From: Rhodospirillaceae bacterium
GTDB lineage: Bacteria; Pseudomonadota; Alphaproteobacteria; UBA6615
Length of the DNA: 64,000 nucleotides
Assembly (NCBI GenBank): GCA_018702955.1
Contig: JABJEK010000101.1
Coordinates: 1-64,000 of the forward strand
Direction: 5' to 3'
Shown here: positions 24,094 through 38,808 of the stretch, in pieces
Numbering within the stretch: the stretch's first letter is position 1
Layout of the letters: every line of letters starts with the position of its first letter
Program-made: the position numbers and the translations under genes
The notes under the pieces: model-generated
What the model saw: the letters and a program-made list of their open reading frames with translations, nothing else
Database searches by the model: none
Told to the model about the DNA's origin: nothing

Positions 24094-25305
24094 ATGTCCG
24101 CATCCGACCACGAACCCGTTCCACGCTACCGGACCTGGCAGGGCTGGCCGGTCCTGTCACAGGGCTTTCGACCCTTCTTCCTGTTCGCGGGGTTGTGGGC
24201 GATTGTCTCTCTCCTAATCTGGGTGCACGCCTTCCTGGGTCTCTTCGAAAGCCCCGGCGCACTCGCACCTCTCGACTGGCACATCCATGAGATGCTTTTC
24301 GGCTATGGCCCGGCCGTCGTGGCCGGTTTCATGCTGACGGCCATTCCCAACTGGACCGGGCGGCTCCCGCTGCAGGGCTGGCCGCTCGCCGGATTGGCCG
24401 GGTTGTGGATCGCAGGGCGTCTCGCCATCTGGTTTTCGGACACGCTCGGCCCGGTTGCGACGGCCCTGATCGATCTCGCCTTCCTGATCTTCTTCTTTGC
24501 CATCGTGTTGCGCGAAATCACGGCCGGCAAGAACTGGCGAAATCTGCCACTCGTCGCGGCCATCGGCGTCCTGATCGCAGCCAACGCGCTGAGCCATGCG
24601 GGACATGCCGGCCTCACAATCGCCGGGCATGATCTCGAACCCATCGGCACACGGTTGGCGCTGGCGTTATTCGCCGCCCTGATCACGCTGATTGGCGGTC
24701 GCGTCGTGCCCAGCTTCACGCGCAACTGGCTGGCCAAGGCAGGTCACACCCGCCTGCCCGCCCCGTTCGGACGCTTCGATAAAATCGCGTTGGCCATCGG
24801 CGTCGCGTCGCTGTTGGCGTGGGTCTTTGCACCAGAGTCACCCGTGACCGCCGGTCTCCTCGCCCTCGCCGCGATCGCGCACGCCGTGCGCCTTTCGCGC
24901 TGGCGCGGCCTGCCAACATGGCGCGAACCGCTGCTCCTGGTGCTGCATGTCGGCTATGGCTGGATTCCCGTCGCCTTCGCGCTGATCGCTGCCGGCATCA
25001 TCTGGCCCGCACAAGTACCGCCGAGCGCGGGCATTCACGCACTCACGGTCGGCGCGATCGCCACCATGACCCTGGCCGTAATGAGCCGGGCCATCCGCGG
25101 TCATTCCGGGCGCTCGCTGACCGCGGGAACGATTGCCACGCTGGTCTTTTTCGCGATCACGATCGCGGCCCTCGTGCGCGTCGGCGTACCATTCCACAGC
25201 GCGACCTACACCGTGCATCTGATGGTCTCGGCGGCTTTTTGGGTGGCGGCCTTCGGCGGCTTCGTTCTGGTCCACGCCGGCGCCATTCTGATGCGGCCGC
25301 GCTAG
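24094..25305 (+). CDS. nnrS: NnrS family haem-copper membrane protein
   Basis: PVLSQGFRPFFLFAGLWA, WHIHEMLFGYGPAVVAGFMLTAIPNWTGRLP, RVVPSFTRNWL; multiple TMs. Confidence 0.88.
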   Translation: MSASDHEPVPRYRTWQGWPVLSQGFRPFFLFAGLWAIVSLLIWVHAFLGLFESPGALAPLDWHIHEMLFGYGPAVVAGFMLTAIPNWTGRLPLQGWPLAGLAGLWIAGRLAIWFSDTLGPVATALIDLAFLIFFFAIVLREITAGKNWRNLPLVAAIGVLIAANALSHAGHAGLTIAGHDLEPIGTRLALALFAALITLIGGRVVPSFTRNWLAKAGHTRLPAPFGRFDKIALAIGVASLLAWVFAPESPVTAGLLALAAIAHAVRLSRWRGLPTWREPLLLVLHVGYGWIPVAFALIAAGIIWPAQVPPSAGIHALTVGAIATMTLAVMSRAIRGHSGRSLTAGTIATLVFFAITIAALVRVGVPFHSATYTVHLMVSAAFWVAAFGGFVLVHAGAILMRPR

Positions 25306-25796
25306 CTGGTAAGGCGCTGCTTTCGGGCCTTGCGCCGGCGCAGCTTCACCTTCACCGGCCACTGGCAGAGCTCCCAGACGAGCAAACCGACAACCAACCC
25401 GGCAACGGCGTAGAGCAGGCTCGCCGCATCGAGCGGCATCGCGGGCGTGAAAGCTTCCGCGACGGCGCCGGCGATCTCCCGGTCACCATGCAGGGCCAGC
25501 GCAACGGGTCGCCAAAGCGGCGTCGCACTCTCTATGGCGCTGCGGGAAACCTCGAGGTCTGAAAGACGCCCCGCAAATGCATCGACAAGGCGGTCATGGG
25601 CTTGGCCGTCGCCGACGATCCGCGCGGCATCGCCACCGGAAAGTTCGTTCAGCGTGCGCCGGGCCTCGTCGATATGGCCGCCGAGACGCTGTAGATAGGC
25701 CTGTACAAACGCCGGCCCCTGGGCAGCGGACGCCGCGCCCAGCGCCGCGATCACAGCACCAATCATTGTCAGAACTTTTGCCCATGCCCACCGCAT
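25302..25796 (-). CDS. DUF2937-like membrane protein
   Basis: 164 aa; N- and C-terminal hydrophobic helices, FVQAYLQRLGGHIDEARRTL; overlaps nnrS stop convergently. Confidence 0.65.
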   Translation of the reverse strand: MRWAWAKVLTMIGAVIAALGAASAAQGPAFVQAYLQRLGGHIDEARRTLNELSGGDAARIVGDGQAHDRLVDAFAGRLSDLEVSRSAIESATPLWRPVALALHGDREIAGAVAEAFTPAMPLDAASLLYAVAGLVVGLLVWELCQWPVKVKLRRRKARKQRLTS

Positions 25797-25846: not shown

Positions 25847-27823
25847 CTACCGGCGTTCGAATTCCGGATCGACCGGCCCGTCTGCGGGCGGTGGCGGTGT
25901 CGTCGGGCTCGGTCCGAAGAAGGCCTCGCTCACGGAGTTGACGAAACTGCCGGCGGCGGATTTGGCCGCCGCGACGCCACGGAACACGGTCTTGATCGGC
26001 CCGGGGATCACCGCATCGGCAAGTTCCTTGGGCATGTTCCGCGTGCGGGCAATTGCCGCGTCGATCTGCTCCTGCCCGCCGACGGTATCGCCTTGAAGCT
26101 GACGCGAGATGCCGTCCAGTACACCCGCCGCGTTTTCATACTGACGGCCCGAGGCGGCGACCGTGCGGCGCACCATCGACAGGGGAATCTGCGGCACTCG
26201 CAGCGCCATCGACGTGTTCAGCGCGGCCGCGCCCAACCGGGGGCCGAGAACAGTGAGGTCGGCGAGACGCCCGGCGAAGTAATTCTTCGGGTCGGATTCG
26301 TAGGCCCCCTTCAGGGTCTGATCGATCAGGTTCGAGATCCGGGTGGCGCGTTTGGCAAAGTCCGCAAAGGGCTTGATCGCCTTCACCTTGTCGGCAGCAT
26401 TGGTGAACTTGCCGCTCAGCCCGAGGGCGTCCCCAAGCGTCGTGGCACCGTATCGCAAGGCCTGCTGACCACCCTCCAGAAGCGGCTCCTCGATATCTTC
26501 ATACTGGGCGAGCAGATCCTGGCTGATTTCTCCCGCCCCATTCGCACGTAACATGCCCGAAACCGCACGCGTAGATTCGACCACCGACCTCCAGAGCTCC
26601 TGGCTACCCTCTTCGATGGCGGCATCGCCACCGCCCTCATAGGCCTTCACTGCCGCCTGCAAACGTTCCTGTGCAATTTTCAGCCGACGCACCCCGTTCA
26701 GGAAGAGCACCTTCTCCGCATCGGTCATCTGCGCCCAGGCGGTCTCGCCCTCGCGCTGCGCCCGGTCCTCGACACTTTCGGCGAACAGCTTGTCGATGTC
26801 GGCAGTCTCGAACGCGTCGCCGGTAACCGGCGGCGTGCGGAATGCCGGCGCTTCGAAGGCAGCAATTTCACCGCCGCGCAGGTAGGTTGGATCGAAGCAG
26901 TCGACGGTGTGGAAATAGGCCGAGACGAACGGCGCACCGGACGGAGATTCAGCCTCCTCGCCCGGCCAGGGACCGAACATCACCAACGCGGGGCTACGGG
27001 GCTCGAAACTTCGGCTACGACGACGATCGAATGTGGCCATCGCCGCCTGGACCGCAAACACCGCGCCCGAACCGATGAACTGATCGGCATTCGCATGCGC
27101 CTGAAGCGCGGCCATATCCCGCCGGATCGCGTTGATATGCGCCTCGCTGTCGCGCCACAGCGCCACATAGTCGCGGGAATTATCCGCCAGGACATCCATC
27201 AACAATCGCTCAGCATTCTCGCGCGCGACCGCCTCGTCACGACACGCATCCGCCAATCGTTCAAGTAAATCCGGATGCGGCGCCACTTCCCGCGTCGTGC
27301 GGGGCAGCGGTGCGTCGGCCGCGTAAACGCCCGCACGCGCGGCCGCCACGTCTTGCTGAGCCCTGGTTCGCGCTACGATGAGCTCCCGGCCGATCTGGTT
27401 GTAGGCCCGCACGGAAAGGTAGTCGGCAAACACAGCATCGAAAGCCGGGTACAACATGGCGATGGCCTCGAACAACTCGGTCCGGTTGTCGGTGCCGCCA
27501 ACGCGCGGCGAACCATCGCGCTTGAGAAATTTCAGCGCCTGATCGGCCTGATCCTTCAAATCATCGGCGTCCGTCAGGAAATCGTCGAGGGTATCGTCGA
27601 AGTCGCGGGTTTCGAGCTTCATCTGCTCGAGGACATAACCTTGCCTACGCTGGTCGCCGAGTTCCGCCTTCAGGGCCGCCGCCGTCTTCGTGAAGGTCTC
27701 GAGCGTCTGGGTGAAGTTTGCGTGCAGGATCGCGCCTTGCTCGGACAAGGGCGGATCGTCCTGCGCCTGTGCGGAAACAATCAGGAAGGCGAGCATCAGC
27801 GCTGCCGGAATGAATGCGCGCAT
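25847..27823 (-). CDS. Large exported protein of unknown function
   Basis: Signal peptide MRAFIPAALMLAFLIVSAQAQ at ATG 27823; ~658 aa, helical and Ala/Arg/Glu-rich; 1-nt gap to upstream VWA gene. No family recognised. Confidence 0.75.
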   Translation of the reverse strand: MRAFIPAALMLAFLIVSAQAQDDPPLSEQGAILHANFTQTLETFTKTAAALKAELGDQRRQGYVLEQMKLETRDFDDTLDDFLTDADDLKDQADQALKFLKRDGSPRVGGTDNRTELFEAIAMLYPAFDAVFADYLSVRAYNQIGRELIVARTRAQQDVAAARAGVYAADAPLPRTTREVAPHPDLLERLADACRDEAVARENAERLLMDVLADNSRDYVALWRDSEAHINAIRRDMAALQAHANADQFIGSGAVFAVQAAMATFDRRRSRSFEPRSPALVMFGPWPGEEAESPSGAPFVSAYFHTVDCFDPTYLRGGEIAAFEAPAFRTPPVTGDAFETADIDKLFAESVEDRAQREGETAWAQMTDAEKVLFLNGVRRLKIAQERLQAAVKAYEGGGDAAIEEGSQELWRSVVESTRAVSGMLRANGAGEISQDLLAQYEDIEEPLLEGGQQALRYGATTLGDALGLSGKFTNAADKVKAIKPFADFAKRATRISNLIDQTLKGAYESDPKNYFAGRLADLTVLGPRLGAAALNTSMALRVPQIPLSMVRRTVAASGRQYENAAGVLDGISRQLQGDTVGGQEQIDAAIARTRNMPKELADAVIPGPIKTVFRGVAAAKSAAGSFVNSVSEAFFGPSPTTPPPPADGPVDPEFERR

Positions 27824-27824
27824 T

Positions 27825-28649
27825 CTATTTCTCCAGTATGACGTCGACCCGCGTGGTCTCGCCCGCGACCACGGTGAATGGCGCCCGACGCACATCGTTG
27901 AACCCGATTTCCGCCTCCGCCACATAATCCCCGGCGGCAAACGACCATTTGTTGCCGGGGTAGAGTACCGTCGACAGCTTGCGGCCGAGCGAGCCGTCGG
28001 GTTTGCGCCGGTAGAAGTTGGTGCGGAACTCGCGCACCGGGTCTGCCCCTACCTTCGGCCGCACCAGCACCTGGGCGACGCCCATCTCGAGAGAGAATGG
28101 ATGGTCGATGCTCACCCCGGCCTCGAACACCGGGCGTTCGAACTTGTGATAGGTGCCGCCGATCGTGATCTCGATCGAATGCTCGCCCGAGGGTGCACGA
28201 AACGATGCCCCGCGACCGACTTCCGCCGGGCCCCGGCTCCATTTGTTCTCGCTGCCCGGCGGGTTGCGTATCCACAATTGCCAGCGCGCCTCCCCGGCGA
28301 AGGCAGCACCACCCGCGACCACGCTCGGTTGCAAGCGCACGGTCCCGACACCCAGGCTCACTGTCACAGCCTTGGTCTCGCCCGACGCCAGCGCGACCGC
28401 CCGGTGCGCCTTGGCCCCGCCGGCCTCAACCGTGACGATATGGGTCCCGGCATTCACGGCATAGGAGGTGCGCGGTGCCACCGTCTGCCAGGCCGCCGGG
28501 GTCACAGCGACGCCGTCCTTGTTCGTCGGGAAGACCGCCCAGCGGGCGTCTCCGGTCTCCGCCGGCTTGTCCTTGGCCAGCGTGTAATCGGCGCGCACCG
28601 TCGCAAAGCCGAGCGTCACCTCGTGGGTCTTCGGCGCGCCCTCAATCAC
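27825..28649 (-). CDS. C-terminal part of VWA protein (repeated beta-rich units), apparently separated by a frameshift
   Basis: ORF begins GTG overlapping the upstream stop by 4 nt; internal repeated units YAVNAGTHIVTVEAGG / FRAPSGEHSIEITIGG; upstream out-of-frame FALAPGGAARAEAIVEVIEG matches the same unit. Confidence 0.7.
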   Translation of the reverse strand: MIEGAPKTHEVTLGFATVRADYTLAKDKPAETGDARWAVFPTNKDGVAVTPAAWQTVAPRTSYAVNAGTHIVTVEAGGAKAHRAVALASGETKAVTVSLGVGTVRLQPSVVAGGAAFAGEARWQLWIRNPPGSENKWSRGPAEVGRGASFRAPSGEHSIEITIGGTYHKFERPVFEAGVSIDHPFSLEMGVAQVLVRPKVGADPVREFRTNFYRRKPDGSLGRKLSTVLYPGNKWSFAAGDYVAEAEIGFNDVRRAPFTVVAGETTRVDVILEK

Positions 28650-29488
28650 CTCGACGATCGCCTCGGCGCGGGCGGCACCTCCAGGCGCAAGCGCGAATCA
28701 ATCGTCTCGGCGACCATCGGTCCGGCCCGTGAGCCGTCGGCGGCGGCCGGGAACACCTGCCAGCGCAGGAACGCGTTCTTGTAGGGTGCACCGCCCTCGG
28801 TCAGCACGCCCACCAGCTTGTCGGCGCTAACGGATTTGACGGCGGTGGTGGTCACTGCGGTGAGTGCGGTTTGCAACTCCGCGGCACTACTCGCATCGTG
28901 ATAGGACCCGCCGGTTTCCGTCGCCATGCATTCGAGGCTGGCCCGCTCAGCGGGCTTGATGTCGAAGCCGACGACATGGGTGACGAACTCAACACCCGTC
29001 TGGGCGAGGTCTCGCGCCACGGCGCAGGGGTCGGCGTTACACGTCTCGAGCCCGTCGCTGACCAGGATCACGGTCGCGGGCTGATTGGTGTGATCGAGCG
29101 CCTTCGCCGCCGTGACAACCGCATCCGACAACGGCGTCTTGCCCTTCGGGTTCAGGCCGTTGACCCGAGTGGCGATCTCGCCGACGGGTGCCGCACCAGG
29201 CTCAAGCAGCACCTCGATGTCCGCGCAATCACCTTTGCGCCGGTGGCCGTAGGCGGTCAGCCCCAGACTGAGCTTCGGGTCCCAATTGCCCACGAGGTCG
29301 GCAATGGTCTCGCGCGCGATGACGATCTTGTTCACCCCGTCGATCTGGCCCCACATGCTGCCCGATGCATCCAGCACCAGCATCGCCCGGCCCAACGGTT
29401 CTTGCGCCGAGGCGCTTGATGTCGCCGCGACAGTTGAAAGTGTTGCGGCGAGGGCCGTGAGTGCAATGGAAACGGGTTTCAAACGCAT
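28646..29488 (-). CDS. Exported von Willebrand factor type A domain protein (N-terminal part)
   Basis: Signal peptide; MIDAS motif AMLVLDASGSMWGQIDG; GKTPLSDAV; LVSDGLETC. Confidence 0.88.
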   Translation of the reverse strand: MRLKPVSIALTALAATLSTVAATSSASAQEPLGRAMLVLDASGSMWGQIDGVNKIVIARETIADLVGNWDPKLSLGLTAYGHRRKGDCADIEVLLEPGAAPVGEIATRVNGLNPKGKTPLSDAVVTAAKALDHTNQPATVILVSDGLETCNADPCAVARDLAQTGVEFVTHVVGFDIKPAERASLECMATETGGSYHDASSAAELQTALTAVTTTAVKSVSADKLVGVLTEGGAPYKNAFLRWQVFPAAADGSRAGPMVAETIDSRLRLEVPPAPRRSSR

Positions 29489-29578
29489 GGTGGGAACTCC
29501 AACGGCGATAAACCTTGCCGTCAGCCTAGCCCAGCCCTCATACGTGGTGAAACCCCATCCGACGCTCAACCCATTACA

Positions 29579-31255
29579 TCAGCCCGTCGTCGCGAGCTGC
29601 GTCTCCACCCGGCCGAGCAGAAAGCGCGCCCGCTCCTGCCCCTGGTCCAGCGCCGCGCGCAGCCAGCGCCGCGCCTGCGCCAGGTCCTGGCGCACGCCGC
29701 GTCCCTCGAAATACAACGCGCCCAGATGAAATTGCGCGCTCGCCTCCCCCGCCGCGGCCAACGGCTGCCAGACCTCGTAGGCGCGAGCATAATTCTTCGT
29801 CTCATAGGCCCGGATGCCCGCCAGCACGGAGCCGGTACGGATCACCGGCGCGGCCGGCACGGGGGGATGTTCCAGTGATGGTTGGGCCAAAACGGGAATC
29901 TCCAGCGCCGGGGGCACCATTGCGATCATCTCGACACTCTCATCTTCCGCAGATGCGGTCACCGGCGCCATGACGTCGTAGGTTTCCTGATCGTGCATGG
30001 GGTCGGCAGCCTCGGTCGAGGGCATCTCGAAATCACGGGCCGGTTTCAAACCGGCCCCTACACCTATCGAGGATAAATTTTCCGTAGGGGCGGGTTTCAA
30101 ACCCGCCCGCGCCAACCCACCAATATCCTCAAGCGCCGCCGTCGCGGCCGCCAGATCACGCGCGATCCGATCGATCTCCCGGCGCAGCGCCACACGTTCG
30201 CCCGCATGCCGGGCGCGCAGGGTGAGGTTGCGGGTCTGCTCCGCCTCCAGCCGCGCACGCAACCCATCGCGCGATTGTACCGCCGTCAGGTCCCGGGCCA
30301 GGGTCGGCAGGCTTCCGGCGAGCAACACCGGCCGGGCATCCAGGCGCGCGAGCGGCACGACGTCGGGCGACGGATTGGCTGCCAAATCAGTCCCCAGCGC
30401 CGCCATCGCCTCACCCGCCGACGCAAACTCTCGCGCCAAACCCGTGATCTCACGCATCAGCGCCGCGCGGGCAAGATCGTGACGCACCTCGGCAACCCGC
30501 AGGGCTTCGACCTCGGCGCGGGTGTCCTCGTCCGGCGTCTGATTTGTCACCTGCAGTGTCAGACGTTCGATCGCCCCTTCGAGGGACAGGCGCAACGCCG
30601 CCGCGTCCTCCACGGCGCGCTCCTGTGCCACCCGCGCGCGCGTACGCTCCGTATCGAGGCGCCGGTGCAGGCTCTCGATCTCGTCTTTCGCCGCCGCCAG
30701 CGCATCCTCGGCCTTGTTCGGCTCGCGCGACACCGACGTGATCGGTGCGCTTTGCGGTGCCTGCACGCCCAGACCGGGATCGGCGGGCGGCCGGGCGCCC
30801 GTCATGATCGCCTCGATCCGCGCCCGCAAGACCCGGTCATGTTCTGCCCTCGATGCGATGGCCTCATAGGTCTCGATGGTCAGGCCCGTGGCGTCGATGG
30901 CGTCATGCATGCGCGCGCGCATCTCGTCGAACAGGGCCTCGGCCCGGTCCGGCCGCCCGGCGATGTTGGCCACCGCGATCTTGGGTGAGTATTCATTGCG
31001 CAACGCCCCCACGATCCGTGTGGCCCGGGCGAACGCATCGAGGGTACGGCCGTCATAGGTTCCGGTGGCGGCGCCGGGTACGCCTGCCGCAGACACGTTT
31101 GGCGGTGCCACGCGTGCCTGCTGCGCATTCTCGGTCGTGGTTTGCTGCGCCAGCCCCTGTGCCAGCGCGGCGGGCGCGCTCAGCGCCGTCATGGCCGCCA
31201 GCATGGCGCCTGCGCCGGCAAGCACGGCCAGCCAGCCTGTGACCCGATCGGTCAT
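29579..31255 (-). CDS. Exported protein with coiled-coil region and C-terminal Sel1-like repeats
   Basis: Signal peptide/TM at MTDRVTGWLAVLAGAGAMLAAMTALSAPAALAQ; C-term AGEASAQFHLGALYFEGRGVRQDLAQARRWLRAALDQG; contains AGLKPAPT...GAGLKPAR insertion. Confidence 0.8.
   Translation of the reverse strand: MTDRVTGWLAVLAGAGAMLAAMTALSAPAALAQGLAQQTTTENAQQARVAPPNVSAAGVPGAATGTYDGRTLDAFARATRIVGALRNEYSPKIAVANIAGRPDRAEALFDEMRARMHDAIDATGLTIETYEAIASRAEHDRVLRARIEAIMTGARPPADPGLGVQAPQSAPITSVSREPNKAEDALAAAKDEIESLHRRLDTERTRARVAQERAVEDAAALRLSLEGAIERLTLQVTNQTPDEDTRAEVEALRVAEVRHDLARAALMREITGLAREFASAGEAMAALGTDLAANPSPDVVPLARLDARPVLLAGSLPTLARDLTAVQSRDGLRARLEAEQTRNLTLRARHAGERVALRREIDRIARDLAAATAALEDIGGLARAGLKPAPTENLSSIGVGAGLKPARDFEMPSTEAADPMHDQETYDVMAPVTASAEDESVEMIAMVPPALEIPVLAQPSLEHPPVPAAPVIRTGSVLAGIRAYETKNYARAYEVWQPLAAAGEASAQFHLGALYFEGRGVRQDLAQARRWLRAALDQGQERARFLLGRVETQLATTG
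30036..30110. repeat. Nested palindromic element, copy 1 (inside CDS 29579..31255)
   Basis: GGGCCGGTTTCAAACCGGCCCCTAC - 22 nt - GTAGGGGCGGGTTTCAAACCCGCCC. Confidence 0.9.
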
Positions 31256-31455
31256 GAACCTGTCTCCCCTGTTTCTTCCTTGCGTGGAAAAACCACGCGA
31301 CATCGCAGGGCACAGCCTCACGCAGGCAGGCTTAGAGGAGCGTTAAGAATTCAGAAAGTTTTAGATGATTGGCGTTGCACCTGCCGGTCGAAAGAGGTCG
31401 AAACCCATTGATCCGCCTCAATCGCCGCGCCGCGTGCGGTGTTATGCTGCGCGTC

Positions 31456-33027: not shown

Positions 33028-33038
33028 GCTCAAGGCGT

Positions 33039-33064
33039 CCTGCCCGGGCCTGTTCCGGGCATCC
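33039..33064. repeat. Short REP-like inverted repeat (TGCCCGGGCCTGTTCCGGGCA)
   Basis: Imperfect palindrome, similar to that at 34606-34632; both are followed by CACG(T/C)CTATC(G/C)GTCACGCAG and a nested palindrome. Confidence 0.7.
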
Positions 33065-33092
33065 ACGTCTATCGGTCACGCAGAATCGGTAG

Positions 33093-33162
33093 CCGGGTGG
33101 GTTTAAAACCCACCCCTACCTAGCGTAACGGGGTTGTAGGGGCGGATTTCAAACCCGCCCGC
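33093..33162. repeat. Nested palindromic element, copy 2
   Basis: CGGGTGGGTTTAAAACCCACCCCTAC - 16 nt - GTAGGGGCGGATTTCAAACCCGCCCGC; ends 2 nt from VOC stop. Confidence 0.9.
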
Positions 33163-33164
33163 GT

Positions 33165-33716
33165 CTACGCCCCGCCACCCATCTCCGCAGCCATCATCTT
33201 TTCCCGTTCATCCGCCGCCATGAAGCCCGCATCCTCGCGGCAATGGGCCTCGGTCATGGCCATGATCTCATCATTGGGCAGGGTGAGGTCGAACGGGTGG
33301 GCATGGCGCTGGGGCACATGCCAGGGCGTGTGAACATAGATCTCGATGCGGTTGCCCTCGGGATCATTGAAATAGAACGACCAGGCGTTGCCGTGGGTGA
33401 TCATCCGGTTCACGTCGCGCCCCGCCGCAATAACCCGCTCATACAGGACCCGTTGCTCGTCGAGTGAGCCGAGCAGGAAGGATATCTGCTGGGCGAAGGC
33501 CGAGGCGTCCTGCCCGCCCGGTGCGTCGATCAGCACAAACTCATGATGTTCGCCCGGGTCGCTCGACATGAAGATGATCCGCGAGGGCGGGTCGCCGAAC
33601 GTGCCCCGGTCCGTGACCGTCAGCCCCATGACGTCGGTATAGAACGCCAGCATCGTGTCCATATCGTTGGTGTACAGGCCCAGATGCCGGAGTTTGGGCT
33701 TCGGGGTGATGGTCAT
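33165..33716 (-). CDS. VOC (glyoxalase/bleomycin resistance/extradiol dioxygenase) family protein
   Basis: LRHLGLYTNDMDTMLAFYTDVMGLTVTDRG, ITHGNAWSFYFNDPEGNRIEIYVHTPW. Confidence 0.9.
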   Translation of the reverse strand: MTITPKPKLRHLGLYTNDMDTMLAFYTDVMGLTVTDRGTFGDPPSRIIFMSSDPGEHHEFVLIDAPGGQDASAFAQQISFLLGSLDEQRVLYERVIAAGRDVNRMITHGNAWSFYFNDPEGNRIEIYVHTPWHVPQRHAHPFDLTLPNDEIMAMTEAHCREDAGFMAADEREKMMAAEMGGGA

Positions 33717-33902
33717 GGCAGGCTCCCGCTGTCGATCGTGCGAATAAACACAATTGCGGGATGCCCGAATTCAGCGCGAGCCCCCGCAGCATGGAGTTTT
33801 CAACGCCGCAGCACAGCGGTCGATGATCTGGATCAAATCGAAATCGGCGGAAATCACCAAGCCTCGGCGGAAACACCAAACCACGTCATGGCGAATCGGC
33901 AA

Positions 33903-33972
33903 CCGGGTGGGTTTAAAACCCACCCCTACGGGGAATGACGCGATTGTAGGGGCGGGTTTCAAACCCGCCCGC
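33903..33972. repeat. Nested palindromic element, copy 3
   Basis: CGGGTGGGTTTAAAACCCACCCCTAC - 16 nt - GTAGGGGCGGGTTTCAAACCCGCCCGC; ends 2 nt from VOC paralogue stop. Confidence 0.92.
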
Positions 33973-33974
33973 GC

Positions 33975-34520
33975 CTACGCCGTAGCGCCCATCTTCGCGG
34001 CCATCTTCTTTTCCCAGTCGGCCGCCATCATGAAGCCCGCATCCTCGCGGCAATGGGCCTCGGTCATGGCCATGATCTCGTCGTTGGACTGGGACAGATC
34101 GAATGGGTGCCCGTGAGGCTGGGTCACGTACCACGGCGTGTGGACGTAGCACTCGACGCGGTTGCCGTTCGGGTCCTGGAAATAGATCGACCAGGCGTTG
34201 CCGTGGGTCAGCATGCGGTCGATGTTGATCCCCGCGCCGACCACCCGGCCATGCATCTCGCGCAGATCGTCGAGATTATCGAGCAGGAACGACATCTGCT
34301 GCACATGCACCGTCTCGCCGTCGCCCGCCGGCGGGTCGGCCAGCACGAATTCATGATGTTCGGTCGGGTCGCTCGACAGGAACACGATCCGCTGTTCCGG
34401 GTCGCCATACCGGCCGTCGTCGGTGACGGTCAGGCCCATGATGCCGGTATAGAAATCCAGCATCGCGTCCATGTCATGGGTGTACAGGCCGACGTGACGA
34501 AGCCGCAGTTTGAAGCTCAT
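33975..34520 (-). CDS. VOC family protein, tandem paralogue
   Basis: LRHVGLYTHDMDAMLDFYTGIMGLTVTDDG, LTHGNAWSIYFQDPNGNRVECYVHTPW; shares C-terminal NDEIMAMTEAHCREDAGFM with preceding VOC gene. Confidence 0.9.
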   Translation of the reverse strand: MSFKLRLRHVGLYTHDMDAMLDFYTGIMGLTVTDDGRYGDPEQRIVFLSSDPTEHHEFVLADPPAGDGETVHVQQMSFLLDNLDDLREMHGRVVGAGINIDRMLTHGNAWSIYFQDPNGNRVECYVHTPWYVTQPHGHPFDLSQSNDEIMAMTEAHCREDAGFMMAADWEKKMAAKMGATA

Positions 34521-34605
34521 GGGTCTCTCCGGTGGCGGGGAAGCAGTTTGCGGGACGATGATAAGCCCGCACCGACCTCCCGTCATGCCTGCATTTTCAA
34601 AGATC

Positions 34606-34632
34606 GTCATGCCCGGACTTGATCCGGGCATT
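34606..34632. repeat. Short REP-like inverted repeat (GTCATGCCCGGACTTGATCCGGGCATTC)
   Basis: ATGCCCGGA-CTTGA-TCCGGGCAT palindrome. Confidence 0.8.
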
Positions 34633-34661
34633 CACGCCTATCCGTCACGCAGGACCGGCAA

Positions 34662-34730
34662 CCGGGTGGGTTTGAAACCCACCCCTACGGGGATTTCCAG
34701 GGTTGTAGGGGCGGGTTTCAAACCCGCCCG
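34662..34730. repeat. Nested palindromic element, copy 4
   Basis: CGGGTGGGTTTGAAACCCACCCCTAC - 16 nt - GTAGGGGCGGGTTTCAAACCCGCCCG; abuts hydrolase stop codon at 34731. Confidence 0.92.
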
Positions 34731-35534: not shown

Positions 35535-37340
35535 TTACTTCTCCGCCTTCTCGCCTTTCGGCAGCACCTTCTTCAGGTGCAGTTCGCGCAGCCTTGTGTC
35601 GTCCACCTCGGCCGGGGCGCCCATCATCAGGTCTTCGGCGCGCTGGTTCATCGGGAAGGCGATGACCTCGCGGATGTTGGGCTCGTCGGCGATCAGCATG
35701 ACGATGCGGTCGATGCCGGGTGCCGACCCGCCATGAGGCGGCGCGCCGTAGCGGAAGGCGTTGAACATGCCGGCGAACTCGCGCTCGACCGTCTCGCGGT
35801 CATAGCCCGCGATCTCGAAGGCCTTGAGCATGATGTCGGGCCGGTGATTCCGGATCGCGCCGGATGACAGCTCCACGCCGTTGCAGATGATGTCGTACTG
35901 GTAGGCGAGGATATCGAGCGGGTCTTCGGCATCGAGTGCGGCCATCTCGCCCTGGGGCATCGAGAACGGGTTGTGCGAAAACTCGATCGCACCCGTGTCC
36001 TTGTCCTTCTCGTACATCGGGTAATCGACGATCCAGCAGAAGTCGTAGCGGCCGGTCGGGATCAGATCGAGATCCTCGCCAATCTTGGTGCGCGCCTTGC
36101 CGGCCAGATCGGCCGCCTCGCCCGGGTCACCGGCGGAGAAGAACACGGCGTCGCCGTCTTTCAGGCCCGCGAGTTCCTTGAGTTTCTCGAGCCGCTCACC
36201 GGCGACGAACTTGGCGATCGGGCCCTTGCCCTCGCCGTTCTCCAGAATGATGTAACCCAGCCCGGGCGCGCCCTCTTCGCGGGCCCAGTCGTTGAGCTTG
36301 TCGAACCAGCTGCGCGGCTGCGACCCGCCGCCCGGTGCGGGAATGGCGCGCACGGTACCGCCCTTGGCCACCAGACCGGCGAAAATCTTGAAATCCGAGC
36401 CGGCAAACACATCGGCCACGTCGGCGATCTCGATCGGGTTGCGCAGGTCGGGCTTGTCGTTGCCGTATTTCAGCATCGATTCCGCAAACGGAATGCGCGG
36501 GAACGGCGTCGGGGTCACGGTCCAGGGCTCATCCCGGTTGAACCCGGCGAATTCCTCGAACACGCCCGCGATCACCGGCTCGATGGCGTCGAACACGTCG
36601 TCCTGGGTGGCGTAGGCCATCTCGAAATCGAGCTGGTAGAACTCGCCCGGCGAGCGGTCGGCGCGGGCATCTTCATCGCGAAAACACGGCGCGATCTGGA
36701 AATACTTGTCGAAGCCCGCGACCATCAGCAGCTGCTTGAACTGCTGCGGCGCCTGGGGCAACGCATAGAATTTGCCCGGATGCAGGCGCGACGGCACCAG
36801 ATAATCGCGCGCACCCTCGGGCGACGACGCGGTCAGGATTGGTGTCTGGAATTCCTTGAAGTGGGCATCGATCATCCGCCGGCGGATCGACGCGATAACG
36901 TCGTTGCGCAGCAGGATGTTGCGCGCGACCTTCTCGCGCCGCAGATCGAGATAGCGGTATCGCAGGCGAATTTCCTCGCCCGTATCCTCGTCCGAATTCA
37001 CCTGCAGGGGCAGCTGGTCGGCGGCGTTCTCGACATGCACCTCGGCCATGCCGACCTCGACCGACCCGGTCGGGAGGATCGCGTTGATCGTGTCTTCGGA
37101 GCGGGAGACGACAGGTCCGGTGACCGTGATCACCGATTCCAGCCGCGCGTCCTCGACGGCCGCGAAAATCGGGCTCGACGTGTCGATCACGCACTGGGTG
37201 ATGCCATACTGGTCGCGCAGATCGACGAACAGAAGATTGCCATGGTCGCGCTTGCGGTGGATCCAGCCCGACAGGCGCACGGTATCGCCCGCATTCTCGT
37301 CGCGCAGTTCACCACAGGTATGAGTTCGATAGGGATGCAT
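35535..37340 (-). CDS. aspS: Aspartyl-tRNA synthetase (probably non-discriminating, given gatCA)
   Basis: [85 protein letters not shown]. Confidence 0.97.
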
Positions 37341-37458
37341 GTTTCGTCCCGGAAAAGCTGGAAATCGGCCCGTTTTTGCTCACGGGCGGGCTATCGGGCC
37401 AATGGCCACGGATCGACCGCGCCTGTCAAGGCCGCACCGGTTGGTCGGCGAGGCTTCG

Positions 37459-37556
37459 AGCGGGTTTCAAACCCGCCCCTACGGTCGATGACGGATCAGT
37501 CGAATACCCGGGTACAGCATATGCCTGATGTAGGGGCGGGTTTTCAACCCGCCCGC
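37459..37556. repeat. Nested palindromic element, copy 5 (long spacer)
   Basis: GCGGGTTTCAAACCCGCCCCTAC - 47 nt - GTAGGGGCGGGTTTTCAACCCGCCCGC; between divergent aspS and rnd. Confidence 0.88.
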
Positions 37557-37601
37557 TTCGCGCCTTCCCCACCCGCAAGAATCCCTGTAGAACCGCCCTC
37601 C

Positions 37602-38786
37602 ATGAACGTTATATCCGACACCGAAGCGCTCACCGCCTTCTGCGATGCGCTGTCCACCGCCGAATACATCACCGTCGACACCGAGTTCATGCGCGAGAGC
37701 ACGTTCTGGCCGATCCTGTGCCTGGTGCAGGTCGCGGGGCCCGAGGACGAGGCCATCATCGACCCGCTGGCCGACGGGATCGACCTGACGCCGCTGTATG
37801 ACCTGATCGCCGACGAGAGCGTGCTCAAGGTGATGCACGCGGCCAAGCAGGACATCGAGATTTTCCATCACGAGGGCGGCGTCACACCCGTGCCCCTGTT
37901 CGACACCCAGATCGCGGCCATGGTCGCGGGCTTCGGAGACCAGGTCGGCTACGAGACCTTAATCGCCAAGCTGACGAAATTCCGCCCGGACAAGGGCAGC
38001 CGCTTCACCGACTGGTCCCACCGGCCGCTGACCGACGCCCAGATGGACTACGCGCTGGCGGATGTGACCCATCTGCGGCCCGCCTATGAAAAGCTGCGCC
38101 GCCGGATCGAAGAGAATGGCCGCCTCACCTGGGTCGAGGAAGAGATGGTCAAGCTCGCGGATCCTGCACTTTATGAGGTTGTCCCGACTGAAGGCTGGCG
38201 GCGCCTCAAGCCCAAGCGTAACCAGCCGAAGTATCTGGCCATGCTGCAGGCCGTCGCCGCGTGGCGCGACCGCGAGGCCATGGCGCGCGACTTGCCGCGT
38301 AATCGGCTGATGCGCGACGACGTGCTGGCCCAGATCGCAGCCCGCCCGCCCGAAGACGAACATTCCCTGCAGCGGGTGCGCGGCATACCTAAAAATTTCG
38401 CCAGCGGCCGGCTCGGCCAGGGGTTGATGGCGGCGATCGCCGAAGGTCAGGCCAAACCCGCCGACCAGGCGCCGACGATCCCCGAACCGGTGGACCTGCC
38501 GCCGGGCGCGGGGGCGTTGATGGACCTGCTCAAGGTGTTGCTCAAATTCAAATGCGACACCAACCAGGTCGCGCAGAAACTCATCGCGACCGTGCCGGAT
38601 CTCGAAGCGATCGCGGCCGACGACAACGCCGACGTGGCCGCTCTCAAGGGCTGGCGCCGGGATATCTTCGGCGACGAAGCGTTGCGTCTCAAGGCCGGTG
38701 AAATCGCGCTGGCCGCAGGGCATGGCAAGGTGCGGATCGTCGAAGTCGGGCCGGCAAACGAAGACAGCGAAGAAGCGGCGGAATAG
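37602..38786 (+). CDS. rnd: Ribonuclease D
   Basis: MNVISDTEALTAFCDALSTAEYITVDTEFMRESTFWPILCLVQVAG...DWSHRPLTDAQMDYALADVTHL; HRDC domain follows. Start placed at ATG 37602, not at the ORF-track start. Confidence 0.95.
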   Translation: MNVISDTEALTAFCDALSTAEYITVDTEFMRESTFWPILCLVQVAGPEDEAIIDPLADGIDLTPLYDLIADESVLKVMHAAKQDIEIFHHEGGVTPVPLFDTQIAAMVAGFGDQVGYETLIAKLTKFRPDKGSRFTDWSHRPLTDAQMDYALADVTHLRPAYEKLRRRIEENGRLTWVEEEMVKLADPALYEVVPTEGWRRLKPKRNQPKYLAMLQAVAAWRDREAMARDLPRNRLMRDDVLAQIAARPPEDEHSLQRVRGIPKNFASGRLGQGLMAAIAEGQAKPADQAPTIPEPVDLPPGAGALMDLLKVLLKFKCDTNQVAQKLIATVPDLEAIAADDNADVAALKGWRRDIFGDEALRLKAGEIALAAGHGKVRIVEVGPANEDSEEAAE

Positions 38787-38808
38787 TCCGAACCGTCGGA
38801 GCGCCGTT

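Follow-up and report, generated by a model that had tools for sequence, protein, structure and literature searches.

An in-frame GTAG REP dimer in the predicted linker of a coiled coil-Sel1 gene: probably an ancestral insertion that was tolerated

Within a 64,000-nucleotide stretch of contig JABJEK010000101.1 from a Rhodospirillaceae bacterium (the window; the genome is called G000 below), a minus-strand gene holds two REP palindromes with GTAG tags, paired tail to tail. The gene and its parts, in window coordinates, are as follows.

29579..31255, minus strand: host gene, with a signal-peptide-like start, DUF4168, a coiled coil, a disordered linker with the REP dimer, and Sel1 (from Pfam, orthologues, purifying selection and a structure model)
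30815..31045, minus strand: DUF4168 domain (PF13767), Pfam E 5e-09, over the cut-off
30084..30109, plus strand: GTAG REP, arm 1 in the gene's sense, GTAGGGGCGGGTTTCAAACCCGCCCG, the exact family consensus; codes for RAGLKPAPT
30062..30083, no strand: 22-nt spacer of the tail-to-tail dimer, different from all other listed G000 spacers
30036..30061, minus strand: GTAG REP, arm 2 in the gene's sense, of the rarer CCGG stem subtype, GTAGGGGCCGGTTTGAAACCGGCCCG; codes for VGAGLKPAR
29840..30112, minus strand: predicted disordered linker holding the REP dimer, pLDDT below 50, model residues 383-473
29639..29743, minus strand: Sel1 repeat (PF08238), Pfam E 1.1e-07, over the cut-off

The open reading frame spans 29579-31321 on the minus strand, with the likely start at the ATG at 31255 (MTDRV...), and by eye the N-terminus of the protein looks signal-peptide-like. 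Syntenic orthologues of ~75% identity are found in three congeners (G002, G004 and G006), the flanks of the insert have dN/dS values of ~0.2-0.3, and Pfam recognizes DUF4168 and Sel1. On these grounds of sequence, the host gene is real. In G004 (L012 / G004:C36), the gene shifts frame near residue 176-181, upstream of the insert, through either an assembly error or a real change, and the functionality of that copy is therefore uncertain. An AlphaFold model computed from four sequences reached a mean pLDDT of 62 and a pTM of 0.24, so only its confidence profile was used. The REP-coded residues, 384-408, fall where the segment with pLDDT below 50 begins; a long helix precedes this segment and the Sel1 helices follow it, and the insert is predicted to lie in a disordered linker that joins the coiled coil to the Sel1 repeat. 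The host-protein segment across the insert, as predicted, is AGLKPAPTENLSSIGVGAGLKPAR. Beside the host gene, window 25847-29569 carries three genes (an unknown protein of 697 aa, a weak CarboxypepD_reg match and a VWA protein) between otherwise syntenic genes; around this segment, matches in G002, G004 and G006 are confined to the flanking genes 25302-25796 and 29579-31321.

Judged by its sequence, the insert at 30036-30109 is a GTAG REP dimer of an already described kind. Two 26-nt REPs, one on each strand, are set so that their GTAG tags point towards each other over the spacer, for a total length of 74 nt, and GTAGGGGCGGGTTTCAAACCCGCCCG and its variants are palindromes of 20-40 bp with an unpaired GTAG at one end. 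The 25 codons running from 30109 down to 30035 contain no stop and encode RAGLKPAPTENLSSIGVGAGLKPAR. An earlier sequence-only reading had claimed that a copy of a dispersed palindrome lies in frame and stop-free within a coding sequence, and the repeat family, the translation of the reading frame and the orthologues all agree that it does, in a real gene. That reading placed the element at 30036-30110; its 25 stop-free codons stand, but the peptide it gave omitted the first R and the element itself ends at 30109. Its description of the element as exonised does not hold, since the gene has no exons and the event is a plain insertion into an open reading frame. Nor is its description of the protein as exported supported beyond a signal-peptide-like N-terminus.

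The same palindrome is abundant in the genome, well beyond chance expectation. A pattern search with up to 3 mismatches returned 51 + 52 = 103 matches in G000, with some sites counted on both strands because the element is palindromic, and the reversed control returned 0. There are at least 81 REPs at no fewer than 45 dispersed sites, and the listed sites comprise 32 tail-to-tail dimers, 3 head-to-head dimers, 9 single REPs and 1 head-to-tail arrangement. Spacers of the G000 dimers are mostly 11-54 nt long and differ in sequence from site to site. The REP was absent, at up to 1 mismatch, from 398 sampled genomes of other Pseudomonadota and so looks lineage-restricted. Dimers of the family elsewhere in the window include the following.

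33094..33161, no strand: intergenic REP dimer, from the genome REP listing
33904..33971, no strand: intergenic REP dimer, from the genome REP listing
34663..34730, no strand: intergenic REP dimer, with an orthologous dimer in G002
37457..37555, no strand: REP dimer between the Asp-tRNA synthetase and RNase D-like genes, with orthologous dimers in G002, G004 and G006

At window 33036-34730, tandem glyoxalase paralogues form a duplication of ~810 bp with a REP dimer at each boundary. In the dimer at 37457-37555, the G002 and G004 spacers run in the opposite orientation to those of G000 and G006 (inverted z of 13.5 and 8.4 for the pairs with G004 and of 4.9 and 2.3 for those with G002; all direct z values below 0), a pattern that a single inversion on the G002/G004 branch would explain.

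Location within a gene is the exception for this family. Deep insertion into a coding sequence was seen at two of the 129 sites listed for G000, G002, G004 and G006, and both are the present site, in two species; G000 alone has 1 of 46 listed sites deep in a coding sequence, and its REPs are mostly intergenic. This count used a codon-score gene model, under which the transposase gene described below went uncounted, its codon usage scoring as non-coding. Sampled sites in G011, a genome of another genus, included no other dimer inside a called gene. Several candidates were rejected. The dimer at 37457-37555 falls within an open reading frame (35973-38786), yet the RNase D domains of that frame start after the REP and its 5′ part runs antisense to the Asp-tRNA synthetase gene, so the dimer is not intragenic. 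REPs at the 5′ ends of open reading frames were treated as start-codon artefacts, and L051:1953-3977 was dismissed as a shadow frame of better-scoring genes.

A candidate for the enzyme that spreads these repeats is encoded in the same genome. A Y1_Tnp gene at G000:C99:38454-38690 is flanked by REPs at 38197-38222 and 38736-38803, the arrangement of a REPtron. Its best NCBIfam match is REP_Tyr_transpos (REP-associated tyrosine transposase, NF047646) at 75.4 bits against a cut-off of 80, and its identity as a RAYT is borderline on this score. Related genes occur in G002 and G004, and G006 retains a short remnant only. We infer that the RAYT-like gene mobilises the REPs. Separately, the RAYT-like open reading frame itself runs into the flanking REP dimer in three congeners (L064:7319-8320, on G000:C99; L072:6599-7342; L073:6026-6910), so that its C-terminal tail is REP code, as in the one ending ...NPSVTRAGHRPAPTSDSGSVGAGFKPARKTGP; a distant relative in G185 also reads into a REP-like palindrome, in another frame.

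For GTAG REPs, Di Nocera et al. 2013 (PMC3733652) describe tail-to-tail and head-to-head dimers, REPtrons, and dimers internal to open reading frames that code for 20-30 residues. The family studied here resembles what is set out there in its GTAG end tag, its two dimer types, its mostly intergenic location and its REP-flanked RAYT-like gene, and the present insert, at 25 residues, resembles the intragenic dimers. It differs from the cases described there in that the host is an uncultured alphaproteobacterial lineage and that spacers, mostly 11-54 nt, vary by site. The sequence-only reading had also pointed to the Rickettsia palindromic elements (RPEs). According to PMC3733652 and PMC10969869, the CGTC class includes RPE-4 and RPE-6, and RPEs, at ~150 bp, often lie in frame within open reading frames. 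The likeness stands for the behaviour of this one copy, a palindrome in frame in a protein gene and read as an extra peptide. It does not extend to membership: the tag is GTAG rather than CGTC, the dimer is 74 nt rather than ~150 bp, a RAYT-like gene is present in the genome, and copies of the family are overwhelmingly intergenic, with 1 of 46 listed sites deep in a gene in place of many copies. RPE identity was set aside on the basis of tag and gene context. REPINs are head-to-head REP pairs with a conserved spacer. REPIN/RAYT systems (PMC3116915, PMC2817692) and the present family share non-autonomous inverted REP pairs and a RAYT-like gene in the genome, but here tail-to-tail dimers with variable spacers dominate. 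An in-frame REP insertion is a rare, already described event.

The history of the insertion can be followed in the congeners. At the same site G004 carries a dimer whose stem subtypes come in the same order; its arms match those of G000 at 25/26 and 23/26 positions and its spacer at 7/22. G006 has a decayed homologous copy identical to G000 at 47 of 74 positions (20/26, 13/22 and 14/26 by part), a value reached by 0 of 20000 shuffles. G002 has no intact copy, and most or all of the insert is gone. In a tree of two neighbouring genes, G002 groups with G004 (98%), and for this reason the simplest account has one insertion before the split and a later loss in G002. The G002 state is best read as a loss, partial or whole; ATTTATCC is common to G002 and the G000 spacer by eye, and a 48-nt in-frame deletion is a possible cause. 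A test for inversion of the spacer in the intragenic dimer of G004 gave no support (inverted z 0.7, direct z -0.6). The linker diverges fast, and for that reason the orthologues compared yielded no clean empty site; a contig scan of further genomes gave no orthologue closer than those of the whole-genome set. The comparison proposed in the sequence-only reading, with orthologues lacking the insertion, did not refute it: those of G002, G020, G021 and G022 are without these residues.

Whether the peptide has been of any use to the protein was weighed with the substitutions in the insert and with the intergenic dimers. Between G000 and G004, the insert has a dN of 0.353, above its dS of 0.206, values that are rough because they come from only 25 codons; the upstream flank has a dN of 0.134 and a dS of 0.618. 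At orthologous intergenic dimers, the arms are mostly identical at 23-26 of 26 positions and the spacers are often beyond alignment, and the intragenic dimer follows the same pattern, its arms conserved as DNA and its spacer not. Since intergenic arms are conserved just as well, the conservation is a property of REPs and is not evidence of a useful peptide. Co-option of the REP-coded peptide, with selection on the protein keeping it, would fit the similar arm peptides of G000 and G004 (AGLKPAPT is identical) and an insert that leaves the reading frame open in every species. We regard it as very unlikely, given that the arms of G000 and G004 differ at four positions, three of which change the amino acid, that dN exceeds dS, that much of the peptide is altered in G006 and most is gone in G002, and that the segment is predicted to be disordered. 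The insert shows, as far as its substitutions tell, no constraint at the amino-acid level. The dimer might instead work as an RNA or DNA structure within the gene, in mRNA stability, attenuation or supercoiling. The 74-nt dimer does fold as RNA into a strong hairpin (-50.1 kcal/mol, z -4.8), and conservation of the arms but not the spacer would suit such a role; the gene, however, has been kept where the dimer decayed (G006) or was lost (G002), ribosomes open hairpins in translated mRNA, and intergenic sites show the same conservation of the arms, so that we consider this role unlikely. The dimer is best read as a selfish insertion that could be tolerated because the linker is permissive.

A second genus complicates the count of insertions. 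The syntenic orthologue in G011 (L129:6430-7662) carries at that same junction a dimer of its own (L129:7568-7637), with an 18-nt spacer and with the first arm read in a different frame (TGDFETHPY). The G011 protein is without a Sel1 domain and its C-terminal end is VGAGFKPARTADDVAG; an apparent in-frame deletion of Sel1 adjoins the REP dimer. G020, G021 and G022 have no REP at the junction and keep Sel1. An independent insertion into the same linker is the likelier explanation of the G011 dimer, and an old insertion shared by G011 and the genus, with several losses, is less likely. Taken further, the linker could be a preferred target or refuge of REP dimers, hit by repeated independent insertions also within the genus instead of by a single ancestral one. 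The separate G011 dimer and its absence from G020, G021 and G022 speak for this, as do the lack of any other deep intragenic REP among the 129 listed sites or of another dimer within a called gene at the sampled G011 sites, and the G000 and G004 spacers, which cannot be aligned and so leave room for separate insertions. Against it, G000, G004 and G006 have position and spacer length in common, G000 and G004 have the rare stem subtype at the same place in the order, and the G000 and G006 spacers have sequence in common (13/22). These agreements make one insertion simpler within the genus, and we think repeated insertion a possible but somewhat doubtful alternative. Tentatively, the linker may be a recurrent capture site for REP dimers, struck separately in each of two genera; the loss of Sel1 in G011 may have been driven by REP insertion, and the RAYT-like gene is itself REP-tailed.

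Our preferred reading, to which we give a probability of about 0.8, is an ancestral insertion of a GTAG REP dimer that was tolerated as near-neutral filler. A tail-to-tail dimer, probably spread by a RAYT transposase, would have entered the coiled coil-Sel1 linker of a surviving gene in the ancestor of G000, G002, G004 and G006. It would have been tolerated because the frame was kept, no stop was introduced and the linker is disordered. Its later fate would have differed by species, with preservation in G000 and G004, decay in G006 and partial or complete deletion in G002, and the extra peptide, presumably translated, would be carried as neutral or nearly neutral filler. One insertion can be traced in this way across related species through intact, decayed and lost states, together with an apparently independent gain in another genus. 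The orthologous intergenic dimers act as a built-in control, by which conserved REP arms within a gene need not be a sign of selection acting on the protein, and they counsel caution over claims of new protein functions from in-frame palindromic elements. The likely repeat of the event in a second genus offers an opening to ask whether REPs insert at preferred targets or are only tolerated where they land.
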